From Arthrobacter gallicola (GTDB taxonomy: Bacteria > Actinomycetota > Actinomycetes > Actinomycetales > Micrococcaceae): a DNA stretch of 64,000 bases. The stretch lies in the NCBI RefSeq assembly GCF_014836775.1, contig NZ_JACSQD010000003.1, positions 62,001 to 126,000 on the forward strand. The letters are read 5' to 3'. Position 1 is the stretch's first letter, and every line of letters starts with the position of its first letter. The notes below the pieces were generated by a model that saw nothing but the letters and a program-made list of their open reading frames with translations, was not told where the DNA came from and did no database searches. Below, piece by piece: positions 26,449 to 39,988 of this stretch. A program made the position numbers and the translations under genes.

Positions 26449-27639
26449 GTGGCGAAGGCAAAGTTCGAGCGGACTAAGCCGCACGTCAACATCGGCACCA
26501 TTGGTCACGTTGACCATGGAAAGACGACGTTGACCGCTGCCATTTCAAAGGTGCTTGCTGACAAGTACCCTGACCTGAACGAGCAGCGCGACTTCGCTGC
26601 TATTGACTCCGCGCCGGAAGAGCGTCAGCGCGGTATCACCATCAACATCTCGCACATTGAGTACCAGACCGAGAAGCGTCACTACGCACACGTTGACGCC
26701 CCGGGCCACGCTGACTACATCAAGAACATGATCACCGGCGCAGCTCAGATGGACGGCGCAATCCTCGTGGTTGCCGCTACTGACGGCCCGATGGCTCAGA
26801 CCCGCGAGCACGTTCTGCTCGCCCGCCAGGTTGGTGTTCCCTACCTGCTGGTCGCTCTGAACAAGTCCGACATGGTTGAGGACGAGGAACTTCTCGACCT
26901 CGTGGAAATGGAAGTTCGCGAACTGCTGAGCTCCCAGGAGTTCGACGGCGACAACGCTCCCGTCGTTCGCGTTTCCGGCCTGAAGGCACTGGAAGGCGAC
27001 CCCAAGTGGGTTGCGTCCGTCGAAGAACTCATGGAAGCCGTTGACAACAACGTTCCGGACCCCGTTCGCGACAAGGACAAGCCGTTCCTGATGCCGATCG
27101 AGGACGTCTTCACCATCACCGGTCGTGGCACCGTTGTTACGGGCCGCGCCGAGCGCGGTACCCTCGCTATCAACTCCGAGGTCGAGATCGTCGGCATCCG
27201 TCCGGTCCAGAAGACCACGGTTACCGGTATCGAGATGTTCCACAAGCAGCTTGACGAAGCATGGGCCGGCGAGAACTGTGGCCTGCTGCTCCGCGGTATC
27301 AAGCGCGAAGACGTAGAGCGTGGCCAGGTTGTCGTCAAGCCGGGTTCCATCACCCCGCACACCGACTTCGAGGCCAACGTCTACATCCTGTCCAAGGATG
27401 AAGGCGGCCGCCACAACCCGTTCTACTCGAACTACCGCCCGCAGTTCTACTTCCGCACCACCGACGTCACGGGTGTTATCACCCTGCCCGAGGGTACGGA
27501 AATGGTTATGCCCGGTGACAACACCGAAATGACCGTTGAACTGATCCAGCCGATCGCAATGGAAGAGGGCCTCGGCTTCGCTATCCGCGAAGGCGGCCGC
27601 ACCGTTGGATCCGGCCGCGTCACCAAGATCATCAAGTAA
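26449..27639 (+). CDS. tuf: elongation factor Tu
   Basis: The protein has 396 residues with the GTPase motifs [18 protein letters not shown] and NKSD, and complete domains II and III. It delivers aminoacyl-tRNA to the ribosome. The start is GTG 26449 after CTAGGAGGA. It is the last gene of the str operon, with its own likely promoter, and is closed by a strong terminator. Confidence 0.98.
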
Positions 27640-27679: not shown

Positions 27680-27711
27680 GAAGGCCCCGCCGCTACGGCA
27701 GCGGGGCCTTC
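27680..27711. terminator. bidirectional terminator after tuf
   Basis: The 11-bp perfect stem GAAGGCCCCGC (27680-27690) with GCGGGGCCTTC (27701-27711) is followed by TTGCGTT. The stop codon of the converging - strand gene (27693-27695) lies in the loop, so the right arm encodes that gene's last residues. Confidence 0.8.
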
Positions 27712-29918
27712 TTGCGTTCCGCCGGAGGGCTGTCCCGGTGAGTGCCCAGTGCCGCAGCCAGCGCAGTACCGCATTCCAGGCCCTCGGCGAAGGCACGCAC
27801 CGCATTCAGCCCGGCGGCCGAGGCAGCGCCGCCAATGACCGAGAACGCCGTGCCCTGCGCCTGGAGTCCGCGGGCCAGTTCGGTGTTTTCCACCTGCCCG
27901 GCGGCTACTACGACGGCGTCGGCTGGGATCAGCAGGTCCCCGCCCTCCGGTCCGCTCACCAGCAGACCCGCGTCCGTCAGGTACCGGACGGTTACTCCGG
28001 TCAGCATGCGCACACCCGCGCTGCGCAGGGCCTGGAGCGCCGCCCAGCGGGTAGAGGGTCCGATCCCTGCCCCGATGCGCCCGCCCCGGCGCAGCAGGGT
28101 GATCCCGGCGTGGTCCGTTCCAGGGGGACCGGAGAATTCACGGGCAAAGCGTTCGGCTGCCTGCTGCGCGGTCTCCGGCCGTCCCGGAGTTGGAGAAATC
28201 AGCAGGTGGGCGAGGTCCACCGCGATCCCCCCTGCGCCCACGACGGCGACGCCGGGTAGGGCGCGCAGCGCCGCCGGAGCCGCGAATGCCGCGCGGTAGT
28301 CCAGGACGGGGAGCATTTCCCGCCCGGGCAGTGTGACGGTGCGGGGGAGTACGCCGGTGGCCACCACCACGTGGCTGAAGCCGGTCAGCTCGGCCGCCTG
28401 CACCCGCACGCCCGTCCGGATCCGGACACCCAGCCGGGGGAGTTCGTGTTCGAAGTACCTGATGGTCTCCAGGAAGTCCGCTTTGCCCGGCACCTTGCCG
28501 GCCAGCAGGAACTGCCCTCCGATGCCCGGTTCGGCTTCGAAGAGAACCACGGGCACACCGTGGGAGGCCAGGGTTGCGGCTGCCTGGAGGCCCGCCGGGC
28601 CTGCACCCGCCACCGCCACCGCCGGGCGTGCCGCAAACCGGCTCAACGCGGGGCCGGAGCCGGCCGGCGCGGAGCGTGAGGAGCCCTCGGCCGGCCCGGA
28701 CCTCATCCCCGCAGGCTGCACTTCGAGCGGATAGGCGGCTTCCCGTCCGGCCCGCGGGTTGACCAGGCAGGAGACCGGTTCGGTCCCGAGCGAGCGGTCG
28801 ATGCAGGCTTCGTTGCAGGCAATGCAGGTGTTCACCAGTTCCGGCCGTCCGGCGGAGCTCTTGGCGACGATGCGCGGATCGGCCAGGAACGGGCGGGCCA
28901 TGGACACAAAATCCACCTGCCCGGCAGCCAGCGCGGCCTCCGCCTGGCCCAGGGAATTGATCCGGTTCGAACCGATGACCGGGACCGGGCAGGCGTGCTC
29001 GGCCAGCACAGCCTTGATCCGGGCCGCAACGGGAAGCCAGTGGCCGTGCGGCACCAGCGCTTGGACCGTGGGGATCTGTGATTCATGCCAGCCGATTCCG
29101 ATATTGAGGGCGTCTGCCCCGGCCGCCGCGAGGGCGGTGGCCAGAGCAGCGTATTCCGCCGGCGGGCTGGAACCGGGAACCAGATCGTCACCGGAGAGCC
29201 GGAAGATTACCGGGAATCCGGGACCGGCGGCGTCCCGGACCGCTGCCAGCACCGCAAGGGGAAACGCCCGCCGCCGGACGGCATCTCCACCCCAGTCGTC
29301 ATCACGCAGATTGGTGGCCGCTGAAGCGAACTGATTCACCAGGTATCCCTCGGATCCCATGATTTCCACGGCATCGAAGCCAAGCTCCCGGGCCAGGCGG
29401 GCAGCGCCGGCAAAGTCTTCCAGCGTCTGCGCTATCTGCTCCGGGTTCATGGCAGCCGGTGTGCTCCGGGAGTACGCGGACCACACCGGGGAGGGGGCAA
29501 GCGGACGCAGCCCATAGGTTTCTTCAAAGGCGTACCGGCCCGCGTGGAAGAGCTGGAGCGCCAGCCGCCCGCCGGCGTCGTGCACTGCCTCCAGCGCCGC
29601 GCCGGCCGCCTCCTGGAAAGCGCCGCTGCCGCTCACCAGGTAGGTCCGGCCACCGGAGCCTTCCCGGTTGACGGCGGTGCCTCCGGTGACGATCAGGGCC
29701 GCGCCCCCGGCTGCCCGTTCGGCATAAAATGCCCCCAGGGCACGGGGGTCCGACTCGAAGTTCAGGTGCATGGAGCCCATGACTATCCGGTGCGGCAGGT
29801 TCAGGGTGCCGATGGCGCCGGGGGTGAACACGGACGGGAAGCTGCGGGTTCCGGGGCGGGGATCGGTAGACACGGGCTGGGTGCTATCCGCCCGCGCGGC
29901 CCAGGAGGTCCCGGGCAA
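27693..29918 (-). CDS. FadH-like 2,4-dienoyl-CoA reductase (NADH:flavin oxidoreductase)
   Basis: The protein has 741 residues. It combines an N-terminal old-yellow-enzyme TIM barrel (PHRIVMGSMHLNFE near residue 43; catalytic-type Y192 in GSEGYLVNQF and H278 in IGWHES), a [4Fe-4S] site C365-x2-C368-x3-C372-x11-C384, and an FAD/NAD Rossmann unit (AVAGAGPAGLQAAATLASHG, about 435-455). This is the architecture of E. coli FadH. It reduces conjugated dienoyl-CoAs with NAD(P)H. The Y and H match the FadH proton donors. The start is TTG 29918, overlapping the acyl-CoA dehydrogenase gene by 35 bases; GTG 29873 is an alternative. Its company (EPSPS-ligase fusion and dehydrogenase) suggests a cyclic dienoyl-CoA substrate rather than a fatty acid. 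Confidence 0.85.
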   Translation of the reverse strand: MPGTSWAARADSTQPVSTDPRPGTRSFPSVFTPGAIGTLNLPHRIVMGSMHLNFESDPRALGAFYAERAAGGAALIVTGGTAVNREGSGGRTYLVSGSGAFQEAAGAALEAVHDAGGRLALQLFHAGRYAFEETYGLRPLAPSPVWSAYSRSTPAAMNPEQIAQTLEDFAGAARLARELGFDAVEIMGSEGYLVNQFASAATNLRDDDWGGDAVRRRAFPLAVLAAVRDAAGPGFPVIFRLSGDDLVPGSSPPAEYAALATALAAAGADALNIGIGWHESQIPTVQALVPHGHWLPVAARIKAVLAEHACPVPVIGSNRINSLGQAEAALAAGQVDFVSMARPFLADPRIVAKSSAGRPELVNTCIACNEACIDRSLGTEPVSCLVNPRAGREAAYPLEVQPAGMRSGPAEGSSRSAPAGSGPALSRFAARPAVAVAGAGPAGLQAAATLASHGVPVVLFEAEPGIGGQFLLAGKVPGKADFLETIRYFEHELPRLGVRIRTGVRVQAAELTGFSHVVVATGVLPRTVTLPGREMLPVLDYRAAFAAPAALRALPGVAVVGAGGIAVDLAHLLISPTPGRPETAQQAAERFAREFSGPPGTDHAGITLLRRGGRIGAGIGPSTRWAALQALRSAGVRMLTGVTVRYLTDAGLLVSGPEGGDLLIPADAVVVAAGQVENTELARGLQAQGTAFSVIGGAASAAGLNAVRAFAEGLECGTALAAALGTHRDSPPAERKKAPLP

Positions 29919-31068
29919 TCACGGCCTTCTGGATTTCGTTGGTGCCTTCTTCGAAGCGCTGCGCCCTGGCATCCCGGTACACCCGTTCGATCGGCTGGCT
30001 CTGCCAGTAACCGATGCCGCCGTGCACCTGCAGCGCCTTGTCCGTGACGCGGGTGAGCATGTCGACGGCGGTCAGCTTGGCCATCGAGGACAGTGCAGGC
30101 GCACCCGGGTCCGAATCCTGCCAGGCGGCGGCCGCTGTCAGGGTGAGTGCCCTGGCGGCGGCAATGTCGGCGGCGTTTTCGGCCAGCATAAAGGCGATGG
30201 CCTGCCGGGAAGCGAGCGGTTTCCCGAAGGTTGTGCGCTCCAGTGCGTAGGCGACGGCCAGCTGCTGGGCGCGCTGGGCCAGCCCCACACAGCTCATGGC
30301 CACGGAAATCCGGCTGGGTGTCAGGAACCCGCCCAGCGCGACCAGCAGGCCCTCGCCCTCCGCGCCCAGCCGGTTCGCCACCGGAACCGGTGCGTCCGTG
30401 AAGGACAGCGATGCGTGGTCGGTGCCGCGCACGCCCATGGTGTTTGAAGTATCTTCGACCTCTGCCCCCGGGACAGTGCGGTCAACCAGCAGTGCCACGG
30501 TTCCGTCCCGGCCGGTGCTGCCTTCCAGCCGGGCGAACAACAGCCAGTAATCGCAGCGGACCCCGAAGGTGATCAGGTGCTTGCGGCCGGTGAGGTAGTA
30601 GGTGTCCCCGTCGCGGCGGACGGTCGAGGTGATGTCCACGCCGGTGCCGTTGCCCGGTTCCGTCAGGGTGAACGCCACCGTCAGGTCCCCGGCCACGGCC
30701 GGGCGGATGACGTCCCGGCGCTGGCGTTCGTCCGCGAACGGGTTCATGGCCCGCCAGGTTCCGTTCAGGACGTGCACGATCATGCGGATGGACGCGTGCG
30801 AGCGGGAGAACACCTCCATCAGTCCCATCCATTGCACAAAGCTCAGCCCGGCGCCGCCGAGGTCCCGTGGCGCAGCCAGGGACAGGAAGCCTTCGGTCCG
30901 CAGCTGTTTCCACAGTGCATCGGGGGTGGAACCTGCCGCTTCGATTTCCTCCGCCCAGGCCTCGCCGGGTCCCTCGACCCAGTCCGTGACCCTTGCAAGC
31001 AGGCCCTGGTACTCGGAATCCGGGATGGAGCTGCCCCGCCCGTCCGCCGTAATGCTGCTGTTCTTCAC
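29884..31068 (-). CDS. acyl-CoA dehydrogenase
   Basis: The protein has 394 residues and shows the acyl-CoA dehydrogenase fold: AFTLTEPGNGTGVDITST in the middle domain, FGKPLASRQAI, and LQVHGGIGYWQSQPIERVYRDARAQRFEEGTNEIQ at the C-terminus with the catalytic base at about E374. It would oxidise an acyl-CoA to the 2,3-enoyl-CoA, or run in the context of a ring-reduction pathway. GTG 31068 overlaps the stop of the upstream ligase fusion (GTGA), and its own 3' end overlaps the next gene by 35 bases, so the three genes are translationally coupled. Confidence 0.9.
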   Translation of the reverse strand: MKNSSITADGRGSSIPDSEYQGLLARVTDWVEGPGEAWAEEIEAAGSTPDALWKQLRTEGFLSLAAPRDLGGAGLSFVQWMGLMEVFSRSHASIRMIVHVLNGTWRAMNPFADERQRRDVIRPAVAGDLTVAFTLTEPGNGTGVDITSTVRRDGDTYYLTGRKHLITFGVRCDYWLLFARLEGSTGRDGTVALLVDRTVPGAEVEDTSNTMGVRGTDHASLSFTDAPVPVANRLGAEGEGLLVALGGFLTPSRISVAMSCVGLAQRAQQLAVAYALERTTFGKPLASRQAIAFMLAENAADIAAARALTLTAAAAWQDSDPGAPALSSMAKLTAVDMLTRVTDKALQVHGGIGYWQSQPIERVYRDARAQRFEEGTNEIQKAVIARDLLGRAGG

Positions 31069-34000
31069 GCCTGGCTCCTGTCCTTGCCCGGTGGATCTCC
31101 TGCCAGTTCACGCGCCCGTTCACGCAGCAGGAACTTTTGTACTTTGCCGACTGGATTGCGGGGAATGGCCTGGACCAGTTCAAGATGCTCGGGCCAGTAG
31201 TGTTTCGAGACCTGGTAACTGTCCAGATAACCGATGAGCTCAGCAAGGGTCAGGTCCGTTCCGGTGGCGGGGACCACGAAAGCACACGCCCGTTCGCCCA
31301 GCCGTGGATCGGGCATGGCAGCCAGCGCCACGTCCTCCACCCCCGGGTGGCGGTAGAGCAGCTGCTCAATCTCCGCCACGGGAATCTTCTCGCCCCCGCG
31401 GTTAATCACGTCCCGCACTCGTCCGGTGATCCGCAGGTACCCGGCGTCGTCGAGCGTGGCCAGGTCGCCGGTGCGGTACCAGCCATCGTCGGTGAAGGCT
31501 TCTTTGGTCAGGTCCGGCCGGTCCAGATAGCCCTCGAACAGGGTGGGGCTCAGCAGCTCGAAGTTGCCCTCGATCCCTGCTGGGAGCAGCTGCCCCTCGT
31601 CACTGACAATGCGGGCCCGGACGCCGGGGAGCAGCCGTCCGTCCGTTCCCCAGACCAGGGCCGGATCGTCGCCGGGGGAGGAGACGGACCCCAGACAGGT
31701 TTCCGTGGTGCCGAAGGCACCGCAGACGGCGGTATCCAGGACTCGGGTTGCGCGTTCGGCCAGGTGCCGTGGCACGGCCGCGCCGGTATTCACGAAGATC
31801 CGCAGGCTGGCGGGGGCCGCGGCGCCGGCTTCCACGGCTTTGACCAGATCGGTCAGGAAAGGGGTGGCGGCCTGGACGAAGGTACCCTTCCATCCGCGGA
31901 GCATGGTCAGGGCGCGCTCGGGTTCCCAGACTGACTGCAGGATCTGCGGCGCTCCCAGCACGAAGGACAGCCACATTCCGTAGAGAAAGCCCGTCTGGTG
32001 GGCCAGCGGAGAGGGGACGAAAACTGCGTCCGAACCGTCCAGCTCCAGCTGCTGGGCTTCCATGGCGGCGGCCCGGCTTAGCGTGCTGTGCCGGTGGAGG
32101 ACTCCCTTGGGTTCTCCGGTGGTTCCGGAGGTGAACAGCAGCTGGGCCGGCGCATCGGGAGCCGGGGCAGCTGCGTCAATCAGGTCCCGGTCCACCTCGG
32201 TCTCAGCCAGTTCCTGTTCCCAGCCGTGCCAGATGACGCCCCGCTCGCGGACCGGAAGCGGGGGAGCCGCCGCGCCGATGACCACCACGTGCCGGACCGC
32301 CAGGTCGTAGCCGGGATCGGTGCCCGTACCCGCGGCCAGGATGCCGGAGAGTTCCGCGGCATAGTGCCTGCCGCGGAACTCTTCGGGGACCACAACGACG
32401 GCGGCCCGCGAGCGGTGCAAGGCAAACGCGACCTCACGTTCACGGAAAATCGGCATCAGGGGAGCGGCCACGGCCCCGATCCGCAGGGCCGCAACGGTCA
32501 GCAGGACGAATTCGCTCCAGTTCGGCAGCTGGAAAGCCACCCGGTCTCCGGGCTGGACCCCCAAGCTCAGCAGCATCGCCGCGATCCGGTCCGCGCCGGA
32601 ATCCAGTTCAGCCCAGGTCAGGTGTCCGGTGTCCCGCGGCCGTCCGTCGACGACGGCGGTTTCCGCAGGGCGTTCCCTGGCCCACCGGCGGACCCACCCG
32701 GGACCGGTGAGCGCTGCGCTTTCTTCGATGCTGCGCGCTGTGAGCTGGGCCGGCCGGTGTCCGCGCCGGGTCCCCGGGGATTTGCGGCGCAGCGCCCTGC
32801 CCTCCTCAACCTGCATGGATAACCCAAAGGAGTTCATTGCCTCCAGAAACTCCGGGTAGGAGATCCGGTACGCGTTTGGGTAGGTCAGCGTGGAGCGGCC
32901 CTCCGCCGCCGATGCCGCGACGGCCAGGGACATCAGTACCCGGTGGTCGTTGAAGGAGGAAAGGTCCGCACCGGCCAGGCGTGCCGGGCCCCGGACACGC
33001 AGTTCACTGCCGCTGATCCGTACGTCCGCGCCCATGGAGTTCAGCTGCAGCATCGCGGCGACCCGGTCCGACTCCTTCAGCCGCACGTGCTCCACATTGC
33101 GGAACACACTTTCGCCGTCCGCGCAGGCCGCCATGACGGAGAGGATCGGCAGCATATCGGGAACGAGGCGGCAGTCGATGTCCGCCGGGCCCAGGCGCAC
33201 GCCGTCGTGCCGGACCCGGACCGCGTCCGACCCGGCGTCGTAGACCATCGGCAGGCCCATGTCCGCTGCTATGTCCAGGAAATCCGCCTCCGGGTGATCG
33301 GCGCCCCCGGCCGTGACGGAGGTCAGCCCGCGCAGCAGCAGATCAGCGGGATGCAGTGCGGCGGCTGCCAGTCCGAAGGCCGCGGAACCGATGTCGGGCG
33401 GCATCCTCACATCGGTGGGCACGGCCTGCTGCCCCGGCGGGATTTCGAACCTGTGCCAGTCCTGATGCACCTCAACCTGCAGCCCGAACTGCCGCATCAT
33501 CTGGACGGTCAGTTCAAGGTAGGTGCGTTCGTTCAGCGTTCCGTCCACCACCACCGTGGTGGGCCCCGTTGCAAACGGTGCCAGCAGCAGCAGACCGGAG
33601 ATCCACTGTGAAAGTGTTCCGGCAATATGCACCTCTCCGCCGGTGGGGGCGTGGGCGCGGACCCGCAGCGGCGGGCAGTCGGTGGGGGAGTCGACGTCGA
33701 CACCCATCTGCCGCAGCGCGGTCAGCAGCGGACCGATGGGCCGGCGCTGGAAGTACTTCTGGCCCGTGACTGTGACGTCCCGGGACCCCAGTGCCGCGAG
33801 GCCGGCCATGAAGTAGAGCGTTGTACCGGAACTGCCCGCGGAGATGCTGTCCGCGGTGGGGACGTAGGGGCCGCCGCGGACAACGTAGGTGCCGCCGTCG
33901 ACGTCTATCCGGGTGCCGAGGCGGCGCAGCATGGCCACCGTGTAATGCACATGGCGGGCGTCTGTCAGCCCGGTAATGCGGCTGGTTCCGGGAGCGAGTG

Positions 34001-34097
34001 AGGCGAGGATCAACGCCCGGTGGGCGTGGTATTTCGAGTTGGGCACCTGTGCTTCCCCACAGATGCGCTGCTGTGTTCCCAGGACCGAAAGATGCAT
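31065..34097 (-). CDS. EPSP-synthase-like / acyl-CoA ligase fusion protein
   Basis: The protein has 1010 residues. Residues 1-425 form an EPSP-synthase (AroA) fold: NSKYHAHRAL with K22 and R27, GSSGTTLYF (89-97), FQRRPIGPLL with R119, LSQWISGLLLLAP (162-174), MPPDIGSAAF with D235, VRLKESDRVAAM (338-349) and FNDHRVLM (382-389). A linker follows (about 430-460). Residues 460-1000 form an ANL-family acyl-CoA ligase: LLFTSGTTGEPKG (653-665), AFGTTETC, YRTGDLA, GRVRDVINRGGEK, and the C-terminal catalytic lysine region NPVGKVQKFLLRE. Fused proteins of this kind are known from shikimate to cyclohexanecarboxyl-CoA modules. The ATG at 34097 is used; an in-frame start at 34196 would add 33 residues of non-family sequence. 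It is the first gene of a three-gene operon. Confidence 0.88.
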   Translation of the reverse strand: MHLSVLGTQQRICGEAQVPNSKYHAHRALILASLAPGTSRITGLTDARHVHYTVAMLRRLGTRIDVDGGTYVVRGGPYVPTADSISAGSSGTTLYFMAGLAALGSRDVTVTGQKYFQRRPIGPLLTALRQMGVDVDSPTDCPPLRVRAHAPTGGEVHIAGTLSQWISGLLLLAPFATGPTTVVVDGTLNERTYLELTVQMMRQFGLQVEVHQDWHRFEIPPGQQAVPTDVRMPPDIGSAAFGLAAAALHPADLLLRGLTSVTAGGADHPEADFLDIAADMGLPMVYDAGSDAVRVRHDGVRLGPADIDCRLVPDMLPILSVMAACADGESVFRNVEHVRLKESDRVAAMLQLNSMGADVRISGSELRVRGPARLAGADLSSFNDHRVLMSLAVAASAAEGRSTLTYPNAYRISYPEFLEAMNSFGLSMQVEEGRALRRKSPGTRRGHRPAQLTARSIEESAALTGPGWVRRWARERPAETAVVDGRPRDTGHLTWAELDSGADRIAAMLLSLGVQPGDRVAFQLPNWSEFVLLTVAALRIGAVAAPLMPIFREREVAFALHRSRAAVVVVPEEFRGRHYAAELSGILAAGTGTDPGYDLAVRHVVVIGAAAPPLPVRERGVIWHGWEQELAETEVDRDLIDAAAPAPDAPAQLLFTSGTTGEPKGVLHRHSTLSRAAAMEAQQLELDGSDAVFVPSPLAHQTGFLYGMWLSFVLGAPQILQSVWEPERALTMLRGWKGTFVQAATPFLTDLVKAVEAGAAAPASLRIFVNTGAAVPRHLAERATRVLDTAVCGAFGTTETCLGSVSSPGDDPALVWGTDGRLLPGVRARIVSDEGQLLPAGIEGNFELLSPTLFEGYLDRPDLTKEAFTDDGWYRTGDLATLDDAGYLRITGRVRDVINRGGEKIPVAEIEQLLYRHPGVEDVALAAMPDPRLGERACAFVVPATGTDLTLAELIGYLDSYQVSKHYWPEHLELVQAIPRNPVGKVQKFLLRERARELAGDPPGKDRSQA

Positions 34098-34342: not shown

Positions 34343-37300
34343 ATGGGGGAATTCATCTTTATTCTGGCTGTCGCAGCGGCCGCGTTCACGGTGGGGCGCT
34401 TTTCCACGCGGAAGGCGAAGGCTTCAGCCCCCTGGGACAGCTCAGGCTATGGCGGCAGTTTGCCTCACCCCGCCCAGATCTTCGAAGAGGGCTATCAGGC
34501 AGGACTGCAGGACGCCGCCTCCCTCCAGCACAGCAGCCCCGCCCAGCACAGTAATGCTGCTCAGCACAGTCATGCCGCTGCCGGGGCGGGGTACACCATG
34601 ACGCAGGGGCAGACCAAGCCGCAAATCCCTGCTCAAGCGCAGCCCTCTGCTCCACTGCAGTCTCCTGTTCAAGGGCTGCCCTCTGTGCAAGCGACCCCTG
34701 TACAAGCGCAAACCCCTGCTCAAGCGCTGCCCTCTGTGCAAGCGCAAACCCCTGCTCAAGCGCTGCCCTCTGTGCAAGCGCAAACCCCTGCTCAAGCGCT
34801 GCCCCCTGTGCAAGCGACTCCTGCCCAGGCGCAGGCCGACAGCGGCCGGCAGCACGCGCCGTCTTCCGCTTCCTCTCCCTGGGCGCCGGCTCCCGCTGCA
34901 CCCGCTGCAGGCACACCGGCTGCCACGCCTTCGGCGTGGGCACCGCAGCGGCAGTCCGCTCCACCCCACGCACCCGCCCGGCCTCCCGCTCAGGTCCCGC
35001 CGGCCGCACACCCGGCTTATGCTCCTTTCCAGGCACAAACCCCCGGCGTTGGCCGCCGGCAGCATGGGGTGCAGCCGGTCTTAGCCGGGCCTGCCAGTCC
35101 CGGCGGTCCTGCCGGTCCCGGCGGTCCTGCCTGGCCTGCCGCTCCCCGGCTGCAGCCGGGGAACGGGCCACAGCATCCGGAGCCGCCACGGCCCAAGACC
35201 GACGCCGAGCTGGCAGCTGACAAACGGCGCCGGGACCTGCGCAACATCAATATCACCCTGTACTCCGCGAGCCTCCTGCTCGTGGCGGCGGCGGCGCTGT
35301 TTATTGGCATCGCGATCCCCGAAGAGGCCCGGTTTGCCGGGATTGTGCTCCTGACTGGACTGTTTTATTCCTCCGGTCTGGTGATCCATTCACGCCGGAA
35401 GAATCTGCGGCCCGCGGCCGTTGCGTTCACCGGCACCGGATTGGCATTGATACCGGTTGTTGGTCTGGCGCTCCACAATTTCATCCTCCACGATGCCGTC
35501 TTGGCCTGGCTGGTGACCTCACTGCTGGGAACGGCTGCCTTCGCCTACGCCGCTGCCCGGCTGGACAGCCGCGTTGTCAGCTATCTGGCCCTGACCTTCC
35601 TGCTGTCCACAGCGGTCGCCTCCGGGGCAGCGGTCCGCTCGGGAATCGTCTGGTACTTCGTCTTTACCGTTCTCCTGGCCACACTGGTGAGCCTTGCCGC
35701 GGTCCGCAGGCCAGGCTGGCTGAAGAACGTCTATCTCGACGCATTTGTGCAGGCTCACCGGTACCTCGTCCCAGCCACCGCTGTGGCTGCAGTCATCACT
35801 TCCCCGGAACTTGGACCGGGCTCATTGGCTGTCCTGTTCCTGGCCATAGCCGGGTACTACGCCGTGCTGCTCTGGCAGGGCTCCGCTGCCCAGGCGCTGG
35901 TCCACAGCTACGGGGTCCGCGCTGGAGCCACCACCGCGCTGGTGGCAGCAGCCCACTACTTCTTCGAGTCAGTGCCGGTAACGCTTTTCGCTGCGGTGGC
36001 ATTGCTCGGTGTGCAGGCCGCAGGGCTCTTCGCGCTGGAGCGCCGGTATGCCGCAGCCGTCTCCGCGGCCACGCGCCAGGACGTTCCCCGCCGCGGTACT
36101 CCCGCAGGTGACCAGGCAGCTGCAGCCGCTGGTTCAGCTGCAGGCCTCATCCCACCGGCGGGCGCCGGCGGCCCCACTCCAACGCCTGCGCCTGGCGGTC
36201 CCGCCTCGACGCCTGCGCCTGCGCCTGGCGGCCCCGCCCCTACGTCTGCGCCTGCATCTGGCGGCCCTGCGCCTTTGCCGGCACCTGCTGGTCTAGCTGG
36301 CGGCCCCGGGGCTGCATCCGGCGGAATCCGTTCCGCCGTCCCAACGGCGCCGTCGGCCGGCCGCTGGTTCCTCGCGGACACTGCCACTGTGCTGGGACTC
36401 CAGTTCCTGGCGGGCTTCGGTGCAGCCCTGGTGTTCGGCTTCGACCTTCGGGGCGGGAACGGCAACCTGCCGGGCTACGCCGCTTCCGTGATCCTCATAC
36501 ATCTCACGCTCTGCTTTGCCGCCTGGAAGTTCCGCGGTGCCGTGGAGACCGCGGCAGCCGCTGCCCTGTTGCTCGGTATCCTTCCCCGTCTGTTGAGCGG
36601 GCAGGCACCGCTGTGGCCGCTGGTGCTCCTTCTGGGGATACTCACCGGGTACCTGGTGGTCCGCGCCGTCCGCGCCACCGGAGAGGACCAGAAATCATTC
36701 GTCCTGGCGGCGCGCTGGGCAGGGATCGTACTGGTCCCACTCGTCCTCTACACCGTCCTGGAGACACGGGCCTCCGCGGAGGCGTGGACCTGGACGCTGG
36801 CCGGCGGATTTGCGGCAGCCGCGGGGAACCAGGCCGTTTCTGCCCTGTTCCGGGCAGCGGCGCGGAAAGAGAAATTCCCGAACGGAGAGCTGGCCTTTTC
36901 AATCAGTGCCAGCGTTGTGCTGGCACTTGCCCTGCGCCTGGCGGAAGCACCTGCAACCGTCCTGACCGTGACTGCTCTGTGGATCCTGGTCAGCGTCAAC
37001 GTCCTGTCCTCCCTGCTGCGCCGCCCGGAAGCGGCCGCAGCCGCACCTGCAGGTTTCGTCGCTGCGGCCCTGCTCGGAGCCGGCACTCTGGGGCTGACGG
37101 GATATGAACTGCTTGCGGCAGTGGCGCTGGGTTATTGCGCCCTCCAGGTGCTGCGGTTCGCACCGCACTCAGTGCGCGCGTTGTACCTGGCGGCGGGTCA
37201 GGTCCTGCTCACACTGCTCACCGCGCTCGTGGCGGCCGATCTGGACCTCAGCGTGCATGGAATCTTCATCGCCACAGCGCTTTCGCTGGCAGCACAGCAT

Positions 37301-39988
37301 GTTTTGCGCATCGTGTTCCGCCGCCGGCTCACAGCTATAGGCCTGGGAAAGACGCTGAACTGGGGAACCCTGCTGGCGCAGGCAATCCTTCCGCTGGCCT
37401 ATTACGCGCTACTCGGCATGGACGCCGCTGCGGATACCGGAACAGTGCTGCTGCTCATTGCTGCCGGCAGTGCTGTCACCACACAGACAGTCACGGCCTT
37501 CGCGCTCAAACGGACCGCCGCGCCCGGACCGGTGCTTATCCGCGGTATAACCGAAGCCGCGGCTCTGGTGCTGCTGCTCATGCTGGGAATTCGCCTGGCA
37601 GATGCACCGGGGACGGAGCTGGCGCTGGCCGGACTGTGGGCTGCCTTTGGAGCGAATTTACTGACTGCGGTCCTGCACCGCGGAACCCGGCTGGCGCTGG
37701 CAGCTCCGGCCGGTTTCGCTGCGGCCGCCCTGATCGGTGCGGGCCTGCTGGGACTGCGCGGCTACCAGCTCCTCTTTGCTGCCGCCCTTGCCTACTGTGT
37801 GGTGCTGATCCGGGACCACGGCAACGCGTTCCGCGGCGCGTATCTGGCGGGGGCGCAGGGGCTGGCCGCCCTCCTCGCAGCGCTGTTGGCCGCAGACCTG
37901 ACGGGGCAGGTCAACGGGTTCTTCGTTGCCCTGGCAGCAGCCCTCACAGCCGCGCAGGTTCTGCGGACGGTGTTCCACCGGCAGCTGGAACCATTGGGTC
38001 TGGCGGAACCTTCCCGGTGGGGAGGGCTGCTGGTACTCGCGCTCCTTCCCGTCCTCTACCCGGCGGCCTCCGGTCCGGTGGATACTGGTGTGCTTCTTTT
38101 CCTTGTTCTGATGGCAGCCGCAACCGCCTTGTTCACCCAGCTGTCCACCGCGGCCGGTATTCGGACGGGAACGCCGCTGCCCAACGCGGCCGCCCTGACG
38201 GTCACCACTGCCGTGGCGGTGCTGGCAGCGGTGTTTGCTGCCCGGTATGTGGAACACCCGCAGAGCGGCTGGACGCTGGCGCTGATCTGGGCCGCACTCG
38301 GCGTAAACGTGGCCACCTCGCTGCTGCTGCGTCCGGGCCGGTGGGAAGCAGCCGCGGCTGCGGGATTTGCGGCGGCTGCCCTCGCCGGAGCCGGTGTTTT
38401 GGGGCTGCGGGGCTATGAAATCCTGCTCCTGCTGGCGGCGGCCTACGGCGGATACCTGGTGACGCGGCGCAACCAGCCGAACCGTGGACACTATCTGCTG
38501 GGTGTGCAGGTTCTGGCCGCCTTCCTGGCCAGCGTTATCGCCGCAGACGCCGGAGCCGGGGTGCACGGCGTGTTCACTGCCGGGGCGTCGGTCCTGGCCC
38601 TGGCCCAGGGAGCGCGCGCCGGTCTGGAACCCCGGCTGGCGGGCATCGGCTCCGCCGCCGCTGCCCAATGGACAACCATGGCTGCGCTGGCACTCTGCCC
38701 GGTTTTCTACACGGGGTACGCATGGGTCACCGGGCCGGGGGCACAGCGGGACGTTATGGCACTGCTGCTGGTGCTGCTCCTGGCTGTGGCAGTAGCCGGA
38801 TTCGCCCGCTGGCGCGCAGCCCCCTTCCTCTACCCGGCTGTCTACGCACTCGGAGTCCTGCCCCTGCTCCTGACCGCTCTGGTGCGCTTCAGCGGCGGGG
38901 GTGTGCTGCCGGGCCCGGTCCTGGGAATCCCGGCGGCCGGTCTCCTGCTGATAGCCCTCGGGGCCGCAGCCCTCACCGGCGAAGCACGGCCAGCGGTTGC
39001 CCGGCCGGTCCGCACCGCACTTCTCAGCGCTGCCGCGGCCTACCCGGCAGCTGCGCTGCTCACGGCAACCGCTAAAGACAGCCTGGTGCTGACGGCGCTC
39101 TCACTCGCCGCGCTCGCAGCCGTCTTCCTGACCGTTTCCTACACCCGCGCGCGGACCTGGCTGGCGGCCGGTGTGCCGCCGCTGCTCTGCCTGGCGGCGC
39201 TGGCTGCGGTCGGGGAATTCCAGCGCTCACTTCTGAGCACTCCGATGCCGCACGGCTACGGATACTTGTGGCCCGTCTGGACCGCTGCGCTCCTGCTGCA
39301 GGCACTGCGTATGTTCATGTCCCTGGCTGACGGTGTGCCCGGGACGCAGCTGCGCTCCCGGATTATGGGTGTGGCTTCTTCCTTCGTGCTGGTTGCCGGT
39401 GCTGTACCGGCGATGGGGGAGTGGAACCATGCCGGCCTCGCCGGATCGCTGACGCTGCTGGCCGCCCTCGGACTCGCCGTCCGGGAAGCCCCGGCCGGGC
39501 TGCGGGAGGCGGCGGCGCAGGCAGCTGTTCTGCCGGCCGCCCTCGCCGTTCAGCGGATGGGCTGGTACTTCTTCCCCGTCGATGCCTTCTGGTCGGTCCA
39601 GTACTGGGCGGTCATCCTCGCCGGTCTGGCCGCGTGGGAGTATCTGCGTAAGCGGGACTCCCGGGGGACCGTCCTGCTCGGCGCCTCGGCTGTGATTCTT
39701 TCCGGCAGCGGCCTGACAACCATCGGGTCCGGAGGCGCCGGGGATCAGCTGTGGGCGCTGGTGGCACATGCCGGACTGCTCGCCTTCGGCCTTCTCGCCA
39801 GCCGCAGGCTCTTCACCATCTGGGGTGCCGCGGGTGTTGCGCTGGCGGTGCTCTGGTACCTGCGCGGGTACACATTTTTGCTTCTGGCGCTCCTGGCAGC
39901 CGGATTGATTGCACTGGCCATCTGGAGGCTGGCACGTGTCCGGAGCGAACCGGAGGAAGCCCGCGAAAAGGAGGAGATCCGCTCCTGA
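34343..39988 (+). CDS. giant polytopic membrane protein with internal repeats
   Basis: The protein has 1881 residues; its family was not recognised. An N-terminal hydrophobic segment (about 1-20) is followed by a Gln/Ala/Pro-rich region (about 45-290) containing a QAQTPAQALPSV repeat. After a charged patch (LAADKRRRDLRNINITLYSA) the rest is a long run of hydrophobic segments, broken by a Pro/Ala/Gly-rich loop near residues 595-660. Three homologous modules recur at about 218-residue spacing: the anchor AGFxAAALxGAGxLGLxGY lies near residues 903, 1123 and 1340. The short charged tail (RSEPEEAREKEEIRS) is probably cytoplasmic. No enzyme motif or transporter signature was seen. It diverges from the EPSPS-ligase operon and is followed closely by a 43-residue membrane protein gene. 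Confidence 0.8.
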   Translation: MGEFIFILAVAAAAFTVGRFSTRKAKASAPWDSSGYGGSLPHPAQIFEEGYQAGLQDAASLQHSSPAQHSNAAQHSHAAAGAGYTMTQGQTKPQIPAQAQPSAPLQSPVQGLPSVQATPVQAQTPAQALPSVQAQTPAQALPSVQAQTPAQALPPVQATPAQAQADSGRQHAPSSASSPWAPAPAAPAAGTPAATPSAWAPQRQSAPPHAPARPPAQVPPAAHPAYAPFQAQTPGVGRRQHGVQPVLAGPASPGGPAGPGGPAWPAAPRLQPGNGPQHPEPPRPKTDAELAADKRRRDLRNINITLYSASLLLVAAAALFIGIAIPEEARFAGIVLLTGLFYSSGLVIHSRRKNLRPAAVAFTGTGLALIPVVGLALHNFILHDAVLAWLVTSLLGTAAFAYAAARLDSRVVSYLALTFLLSTAVASGAAVRSGIVWYFVFTVLLATLVSLAAVRRPGWLKNVYLDAFVQAHRYLVPATAVAAVITSPELGPGSLAVLFLAIAGYYAVLLWQGSAAQALVHSYGVRAGATTALVAAAHYFFESVPVTLFAAVALLGVQAAGLFALERRYAAAVSAATRQDVPRRGTPAGDQAAAAAGSAAGLIPPAGAGGPTPTPAPGGPASTPAPAPGGPAPTSAPASGGPAPLPAPAGLAGGPGAASGGIRSAVPTAPSAGRWFLADTATVLGLQFLAGFGAALVFGFDLRGGNGNLPGYAASVILIHLTLCFAAWKFRGAVETAAAAALLLGILPRLLSGQAPLWPLVLLLGILTGYLVVRAVRATGEDQKSFVLAARWAGIVLVPLVLYTVLETRASAEAWTWTLAGGFAAAAGNQAVSALFRAAARKEKFPNGELAFSISASVVLALALRLAEAPATVLTVTALWILVSVNVLSSLLRRPEAAAAAPAGFVAAALLGAGTLGLTGYELLAAVALGYCALQVLRFAPHSVRALYLAAGQVLLTLLTALVAADLDLSVHGIFIATALSLAAQHVLRIVFRRRLTAIGLGKTLNWGTLLAQAILPLAYYALLGMDAAADTGTVLLLIAAGSAVTTQTVTAFALKRTAAPGPVLIRGITEAAALVLLLMLGIRLADAPGTELALAGLWAAFGANLLTAVLHRGTRLALAAPAGFAAAALIGAGLLGLRGYQLLFAAALAYCVVLIRDHGNAFRGAYLAGAQGLAALLAALLAADLTGQVNGFFVALAAALTAAQVLRTVFHRQLEPLGLAEPSRWGGLLVLALLPVLYPAASGPVDTGVLLFLVLMAAATALFTQLSTAAGIRTGTPLPNAAALTVTTAVAVLAAVFAARYVEHPQSGWTLALIWAALGVNVATSLLLRPGRWEAAAAAGFAAAALAGAGVLGLRGYEILLLLAAAYGGYLVTRRNQPNRGHYLLGVQVLAAFLASVIAADAGAGVHGVFTAGASVLALAQGARAGLEPRLAGIGSAAAAQWTTMAALALCPVFYTGYAWVTGPGAQRDVMALLLVLLLAVAVAGFARWRAAPFLYPAVYALGVLPLLLTALVRFSGGGVLPGPVLGIPAAGLLLIALGAAALTGEARPAVARPVRTALLSAAAAYPAAALLTATAKDSLVLTALSLAALAAVFLTVSYTRARTWLAAGVPPLLCLAALAAVGEFQRSLLSTPMPHGYGYLWPVWTAALLLQALRMFMSLADGVPGTQLRSRIMGVASSFVLVAGAVPAMGEWNHAGLAGSLTLLAALGLAVREAPAGLREAAAQAAVLPAALAVQRMGWYFFPVDAFWSVQYWAVILAGLAAWEYLRKRDSRGTVLLGASAVILSGSGLTTIGSGGAGDQLWALVAHAGLLAFGLLASRRLFTIWGAAGVALAVLWYLRGYTFLLLALLAAGLIALAIWRLARVRSEPEEAREKEEIRS
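34703..34810 (+). repeat. 36-bp in-frame tandem repeat
   Basis: There are three tandem 36-bp units, at 34703-34738, 34739-34774 and 34775-34810, nearly identical (one mismatch in the third). They begin CAAGCGCAAACCCCTGCTCA and encode QAQTPAQALPSV in the low-complexity part of the giant membrane protein. Partial copies flank them on both sides. Confidence 0.85.

Follow-up and report, generated by a model that had tools for sequence, protein, structure and literature searches.

A candidate polyketide-free pathway from shikimate to cyclohexanecarboxyl-CoA, split over two loci in Arthrobacter gallicola

Synthesis of cyclohexanecarboxyl-CoA (CHC-CoA) is known to provide the starter unit of a few Streptomyces antibiotics. 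The window analyzed here, a 64,000-nucleotide stretch of Arthrobacter gallicola DNA (contig NZ_JACSQD010000003.1, positions 62,001 to 126,000), contains an operon of three intact, coupled genes on the minus strand (27693-34097) that encode a fusion of a 5-enolpyruvylshikimate-3-phosphate synthase (EPSPS)-like domain to an acyl-CoA ligase, an acyl-CoA dehydrogenase (ACD), and a FadH/old yellow enzyme (OYE)-type reductase. This operon is probably one half of a shikimate-to-CHC-CoA pathway that lacks a polyketide synthase (PKS), is split over two loci, and feeds a dedicated condensing enzyme to give omega-cyclohexyl acyl chains. Homology and synteny give good support to the assignment to CHC-CoA synthesis, and CHC-CoA, or a near relative of it, is very likely to be the compound made; that omega-cyclohexyl fatty acids are the end product is an evenly balanced proposition.

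In the proposed scheme, the EPSPS-like domain would act on shikimate and the fused ligase would form the CoA ester, after which the ACD, the FadH-like reductase, and an unlinked short-chain dehydrogenase/reductase (SDR2) would clear the ring of its remaining hydroxyl groups and double bonds, giving CHC-CoA. A condensing enzyme (KAS2) and a second acyl-CoA ligase (LIG2), both encoded with SDR2, would then use the ring to start an acyl chain, the most probable product being an omega-cyclohexyl fatty acid. We infer these chemical steps and the final product from the gene content and residue signatures described below. In the ansatrienin work of Floss, Moore and Reynolds, the 3-oxygen of shikimate is reportedly lost and the acid activated with CoA, followed by alternating reductions and dehydrations. 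The Y-X6-K pattern of the SDR, the cluster cysteines of the OYE, and the glutamates of the ACD fit this outline.

The operon and its EPSPS-like domain

The original prediction of three coupled minus-strand genes, encoding an EPSPS-like/ligase fusion, an ACD, and a FadH-like reductase, agreed with both the coordinates and the Pfam domains. Gene 1 (31065-34097, minus strand) encodes the fusion as one protein of 1010 residues. Its EPSPS-like domain, which is of the PlmJK type, spans residues 1-430 (32808-34097; Pfam PF00275 EPSP_synthase at residues 9-421, E 1e-80), and its acyl-CoA ligase domain spans approximately residues 470-1010 (31065-32690; AMP-binding at 470-858, E 2e-69, and AMP-binding_C at 909-985). 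The top NCBIfam match of the ligase domain was TIGR03208, cyclohexanecarboxylate-CoA ligase, at 469 bits, which is under the 792-bit cutoff of that model. Gene 2 (29884-31068, minus strand) begins with a GTG, overlaps the gene 1 stop by 4 nt, and encodes the PlmL-like ACD of 394 residues (Pfam Acyl-CoA_dh_1, E 2e-41); it carries the motif FEEGTNEIQ, both glutamates of which were kept in 71/71 relatives. Gene 3 (27693-29873, minus strand) encodes the PlmM-like OYE, a flavin, Fe-S reductase of 726 residues (Oxidored_FMN, E 3e-54; Pyr_redox_2, E 9e-21) whose four cluster cysteines were conserved in 55/55 relatives. Its GTG start at 29873, 10 nt past the gene 2 stop, was preferred because an orthologue begins there; an alternative, longer open reading frame with a TTG start reaches 29918 and overlaps gene 2. 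A search of the operon region turned up no sigma-70 consensus promoter, and the terminator-like sites there occurred near chance frequency and inside genes.

The EPSPS domain scored 317 bits against the NCBIfam aroA cut-off of 287, so automatic annotation would label it AroA, a source of misannotation. On that score the operon might be taken for a spare AroA, conferring for example glyphosate tolerance, that lies by chance beside generic fatty-acid oxidation genes. The resemblance is real in that the two proteins belong to the same family and share approximately 30% identity, most of the phosphoenolpyruvate-site residues, and the catalytic Asp313/Glu341. However, alignment of 95 EPSPS-like family members, in the numbering of E. 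coli AroA, revealed an active-site signature that is not that of AroA and is fixed in 95/95. Lys22, Arg27, Gly96, Arg124, Ser170, Gln171, Tyr200, Asp313, Lys340, Glu341, and Arg344 were conserved throughout, and S23Y, N94S, R100Y, and S197E were likewise found in all 95. K411I was found in 94/95, the remaining one being unreadable, and His385/Arg386 were kept in the same 94. Ser169 is lost, with Leu at the neighboring position beside a one-residue gap. Thus, of the AroA serines that contact the phosphate of shikimate 3-phosphate (169, 170, and 197) together with Ser23, Arg100, and Lys411, the EPSPS-like domain keeps Ser170 only, whereas the genome's own AroA, encoded elsewhere (G000:C8), retains Ser23, Arg100, Ser197, and Lys411. 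The roles of these residues are presumed to be those they have in the E. coli AroA structures. On these residues the EPSPS-like domain is not AroA; the enzyme appears no longer to grip the 3-phosphate of shikimate 3-phosphate while keeping much of the remaining site, which would fit action on shikimate itself. The spare-AroA explanation, already contradicted by the separate AroA and by a four-to-six gene order conserved across several phyla, was rejected on the active-site residues and is extremely improbable.

The second locus

Relatives were sought by a scan of one genome per species (84,980 species), which yielded 170, and the loci of the best 80 of these were read. Among those 80, a ChcA-type SDR lies inside the operon in Sinomonas and almost everywhere else; it is absent between genes 2 and 3 here, in the whole tuf-locus Arthrobacter group, and in two Cellulomonas. 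A related SDR query matched the A. gallicola genome at 310206-310982 of another contig (G000:C11), within the gene designated SDR2 (310164-310994). SDR2 shares 74% identity with the SDR encoded in a Sinomonas operon and has the enoyl-reductase Y-X6-K pattern, conserved in 55/55. It is followed by LIG2, an AMP-ligase (C11:308456-310147), and these two form a trio with KAS2, a FabF-like synthase (C11:307207-308442). The operon alone is therefore incomplete, since its ChcA-type reductase is unlinked and encoded at this second locus. The expectation that the operon would hold the same set as the Streptomyces clusters accordingly stood for the PlmJK, PlmL, and PlmM types and failed for the ChcA type, which lies apart with KAS2 and LIG2.

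It is conceivable that, through this loss of the SDR from the operon, the pathway stops short of CHC-CoA at a cyclohexenyl- or dihydroxycyclohexadienyl-CoA. Besides the Arthrobacter/Cellulomonas group, two loci that hold the EPSPS-ligase fusion only, with no ACD, SDR, or OYE nearby, are in line with such a stop (L093, 10001-12979, Streptomyces sulphureus; L105, 10001-12988, S. albus), and these may produce an unreduced dihydroxy-ring CoA. An early stop is nevertheless unlikely in Arthrobacter, as SDR2 was present in 20/20 operon-bearing genomes of the genus and both Cellulomonas carry the trio in the same order. The position of ChcA inside the operon is a matter of gene location and is not required by the chemistry.

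The two loci also share a distribution. The trio was found in all 10 further genomes of the genus whose locus was fetched, and SDR2 occurred in 1/9 operon-lacking genomes. In a tree of four translation genes, eight operon-lacking genomes form a single clade, from which both operon and trio are absent, and the ninth, G013, lies near the base. The pattern therefore amounts to one joint absence and one trio-only genome, and not to 29 independent observations.

Direct linkage was observed in seven Streptomyces loci (L070, L074, L075, L076, L079, L081, and L091), in which fusion, ACD, SDR, OYE, KAS2, and LIG2 are contiguous, which assigns the second locus of Arthrobacter to this pathway. KAS2 alone adjoins the operon in Microbacterium STN6, other Streptomyces, an Acidothermus metagenome-assembled genome (MAG), Streptosporangium, and Solirubrobacterales-type MAGs. 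Genome-wide, LIG2 (at least 59% identity) was present in 12/12 and KAS2 (at least 61%) in 10/12 of the non-PKS operon genomes examined, the exceptions for KAS2 being two Sinomonas. Neither was found in the eight genomes examined that have a PKS/ansamycin-type operon or one grouping with that type. Since KAS2 is tied to CHC genes in this way, with SDR2 here and beside the operon in other genera, a dedicated condensing role appears probable. KAS2 retains Cys163-His303-His340 and Lys335, and in all copies its acyl-pocket Gly107-Ile108-Gly109 is changed to Ala-Val-Ser/Ala, Phe202 to Leu, and Leu342 to Ile, unlike the housekeeping FabF proteins compared. The housekeeping FabH/FabF locus is normal and separate from KAS2. 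In other Arthrobacter and Specibacter (L231, L235, L227, L228, and L232), a KAS2-LIG2 pair was observed apart from the CHC operon, with neighbors that resemble 2-methylcitrate-cycle genes or genes of phenylacetate-CoA ligase and acyl-CoA metabolism.

Genomic position and relatives

The operon had been placed between tuf and the S10 operon, and the position is as predicted except that a large membrane-protein gene intervenes before S10. To its left is the convergent tuf gene encoding EF-Tu (26449-27639, plus strand), which is outside the pathway, is 98.7-100% identical among congeners, and lies beside the operon wherever the operon is present. To its right is the divergent membrane-protein gene (34343-39988, plus strand), which is also found in operon-lacking congeners and is not thought to be part of the pathway; the S10 operon begins at approximately 40470. 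The intervening gene encodes a fast-evolving protein of 1881 residues with a repetitive Pro/Gln/Ala-rich N terminus, and most members of the genus have it between tuf and S10, with or without the operon, although it was not detected there in G023.

The EPSPS domain was present as an open frame in 20/29 genomes of the genus, counting this one; the others are at 72-95% identity. The gene-order comparison that the original prediction had called for was read out for 12 more congeners with the operon, and in 12/12 the same three genes occupy the same tuf/S10 position. Where the operon is missing (nine congeners), the membrane-protein or S10 genes come immediately after tuf. With dN/dS values of 0.06-0.27 indicating purifying selection on all six genes (the operon three plus SDR2, LIG2, and KAS2), this conserved position and occurrence argue that the operon is not a chance arrangement. 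More broadly, the EPSPS domain was found in 30/295 sampled Micrococcaceae genomes (5/32 genera) and, at approximately 50% identity, in 4/396 sampled genomes of the phylum, all four from one family; two further matches in the phylum, at 35-36% identity, behave as AroA. In family f18 of the same phylum (L040-L043), EPSPS and ligase are separate genes followed by ACD and SDR, with no OYE detected, and the unfused genes may be the ancestral form. No relative was found among the viral contigs searched, and the plasmids searched gave true AroA only (at most 33% identity).

The best 80 of the 170 relatives include Arthrobacter, Sinomonas, Cellulomonas, Microbacterium, Microlunatus, many Streptomyces, Lentzea, and Actinoplanes, as well as Eremiobacterota MAGs and two Gammaproteobacteria MAGs. 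In most of these 80 loci the order is EPSPS.ligase-ACD-SDR-OYE, which equals the published phoslactomycin/lactomycin order plmJK-plmL-chcA-plmM (PMC5852498, Table 2). The predicted parallel with the phoslactomycin and ansatrienin clusters was thereby borne out, as Streptomyces relatives at 61-69% identity adjoin either a 3-amino-5-hydroxybenzoic acid (AHBA) synthase, as in ansatrienin-like loci, or a modular PKS, as in phoslactomycin-like loci. In Streptomyces LUP30 (L069), the four-gene operon, which resembles the ansatrienin-type set (ansJ/K/L/M, chcA), lies beside an AHBA synthase (1b9i, E 3e-189), a type II dehydroquinase, and a class II 3-deoxy-D-arabino-heptulosonate 7-phosphate (DAHP) synthase; two modular-PKS loci (L084 and L085) hold EPSPS orthologues at 66-68%. 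The starter in ansatrienin-type loci presumably feeds the ansamycin PKS, whereas Arthrobacter has neither AHBA nor PKS genes. The predicted lack of polyketide genes nearby in fact holds for the whole genome, in which a PF00109 search for PKS genes gave only FabF, KAS2, and weak, short thiolase-type matches. Compared with the phoslactomycin/lactomycin genes, Arthrobacter has the same enzyme types (EPSPS-ligase fusion, ACD, ChcA-type SDR, and NADH:FMN oxidoreductase), in the same order where the SDR is within the operon, as in Sinomonas and Streptomyces, and differs in lacking a PKS and in encoding the SDR elsewhere, together with KAS2 and LIG2. Asukamycin-like type II PKS loci (L080, L102, and L103) likewise have ketosynthase (KAS), KASIII, or acyl carrier protein (ACP) genes at the CHC operon, but their KAS is approximately 39% identical to KAS2 and is paired with a second, divergent KAS/chain-length-factor-like gene, whereas KAS2 of Arthrobacter has no such second KAS and is accompanied by a CoA ligase.

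DAHP synthases adjoin the EPSPS-like genes in Streptomyces, Lentzea, Kutzneria, and Eremiobacterota, pointing to shikimate as the feed. In an Eremiobacterota MAG (L104, 7687-9921), and likewise at L097, L106, L107, and L110, the operon is preceded by genes for a DAHP synthase and for a FabF-like KAS only distantly related to KAS2 (approximately 35% identity). Two EPSPS-like copies in different contexts were observed in each of two genomes, Lentzea NBRC 105346 (L080 and L113) and Streptomyces albus (L068 and L105).

In an EPSPS tree, built by a quick method and with several open forks, the PKS and ansamycin loci were nested among the non-PKS loci, which suggests that use with a PKS is derived. 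We tentatively propose, with somewhat less than even confidence, that CHC-CoA metabolism in its older and widespread form is the PKS-free set (EPSPS.ligase, ACD, SDR, OYE, KAS2, and LIG2), that this set underlies omega-cyclohexyl acyl lipids genetically in actinobacteria and soil MAGs, and that antibiotic clusters of Streptomyces adopted its first four genes without KAS2 and LIG2, which they lost. In Arthrobacter and Cellulomonas the set occupies two loci.

The end product

The KAS2 residues, the absence of a PKS, and the normal FabH/FabF locus together make a CHC-primed fatty-acyl chain the best reading of the combined gene set. Such chains have chemical precedent: omega-cyclohexyl fatty acid synthesis, in which a CHC-CoA starter is elongated by fatty-acid-type enzymes, is found in Alicyclobacillus, in Curtobacterium pusillum (PMC3426160), and possibly, as cyclohexyl-C17:0, in Herbiconiux (PMC10011130). 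Curtobacterium and Herbiconiux are Microbacteriaceae, of the same order as Arthrobacter (PMC3426160, PMC10011130). In these producers the trait is known chemically, whereas in Arthrobacter such a product is predicted from the genes. A paper on cyclohexylacetic acid in Agrococcus was set aside because that compound is unrelated and prephenate derived.

Of the uses between which the original prediction had not decided, the second locus favors a fatty-acid starter over shikimate catabolism. The latter, in which the operon would degrade shikimate or quinate to an alicyclic CoA entering beta-oxidation, draws on the fact that ligases, ACDs, and FadH-like enzymes are common in catabolic routes, that the NCBIfam matches of the operon proteins include cyclohexanecarboxylate-CoA ligase and dehydrogenase, and that KAS2-LIG2 in two other Arthrobacter lies near thiolase-like and hydroxyacyl-CoA dehydrogenase-like genes. 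It is improbable given that orthologous operons lie within antibiotic biosynthetic loci and beside DAHP synthases, that the partner gene encodes a condensing enzyme with Cys-His-His intact, and that the conserved set lacks a hydratase, a thiolase, and a shikimate transporter.

A more serious competitor, though still the less likely one, keeps the same CHC-CoA pathway but assigns KAS2 and LIG2 to a short chain primed with CHC, so that the product would be a special lipid or a small secreted metabolite instead of bulk membrane fatty acid. Both enzymes are additional to the housekeeping FabF/FabH, asukamycin-like and phoslactomycin-like loci put the same CoA into secondary metabolites, and our literature search found no report of cyclohexyl fatty acids in Arthrobacter. 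However, the congeners read show no conserved ACP, tailoring enzyme, or transporter next to either locus.

Several points weigh against the pathway as proposed, the literature result just mentioned among them. FabF-type enzymes normally extend acyl-ACP, whereas here the starter would be CHC-CoA, and priming could be by FabH instead. The joint absence of both loci is a single event on the tree, and G013 (L159), a basal congener, keeps the trio without the operon at tuf and has no close EPSPS-like gene genome-wide. The comparison of 12 non-PKS with 8 PKS/ansamycin-type genomes was our own choice of genomes, and the two Sinomonas exceptions carry LIG2 without a close KAS2. Finally, type strains of operon-bearing Sinomonas species have mainly anteiso acids, and the profile of S. 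susongensis, whose species genome has the operon, consists of branched and straight acids only (PMC10394333). Summed feature 8, which might be mislabeled cyclohexyl-C17:0, made up more than 10% in a new Herbiconiux species and 8.3% in Sinomonas humi, with none in S. susongensis (PMC10394333 for the two Sinomonas); because the last has the operon, this feature was left as a lead and not used as support.

If the proposed pathway is correct, it predicts ring-ended lipids in bacteria for which we found no report of them. In Arthrobacter, a common genus of soil bacteria, the CHC-CoA genes are conserved on the chromosome, without polyketide genes and joined with their own condensing enzyme. The set supplies dozens of orthologues for studying the function of the puzzling EPSPS-like enzyme, and it offers candidate genes for the synthesis of omega-cyclohexyl fatty acids, which chemical work has recorded in Alicyclobacillus, Curtobacterium, and possibly Herbiconiux.

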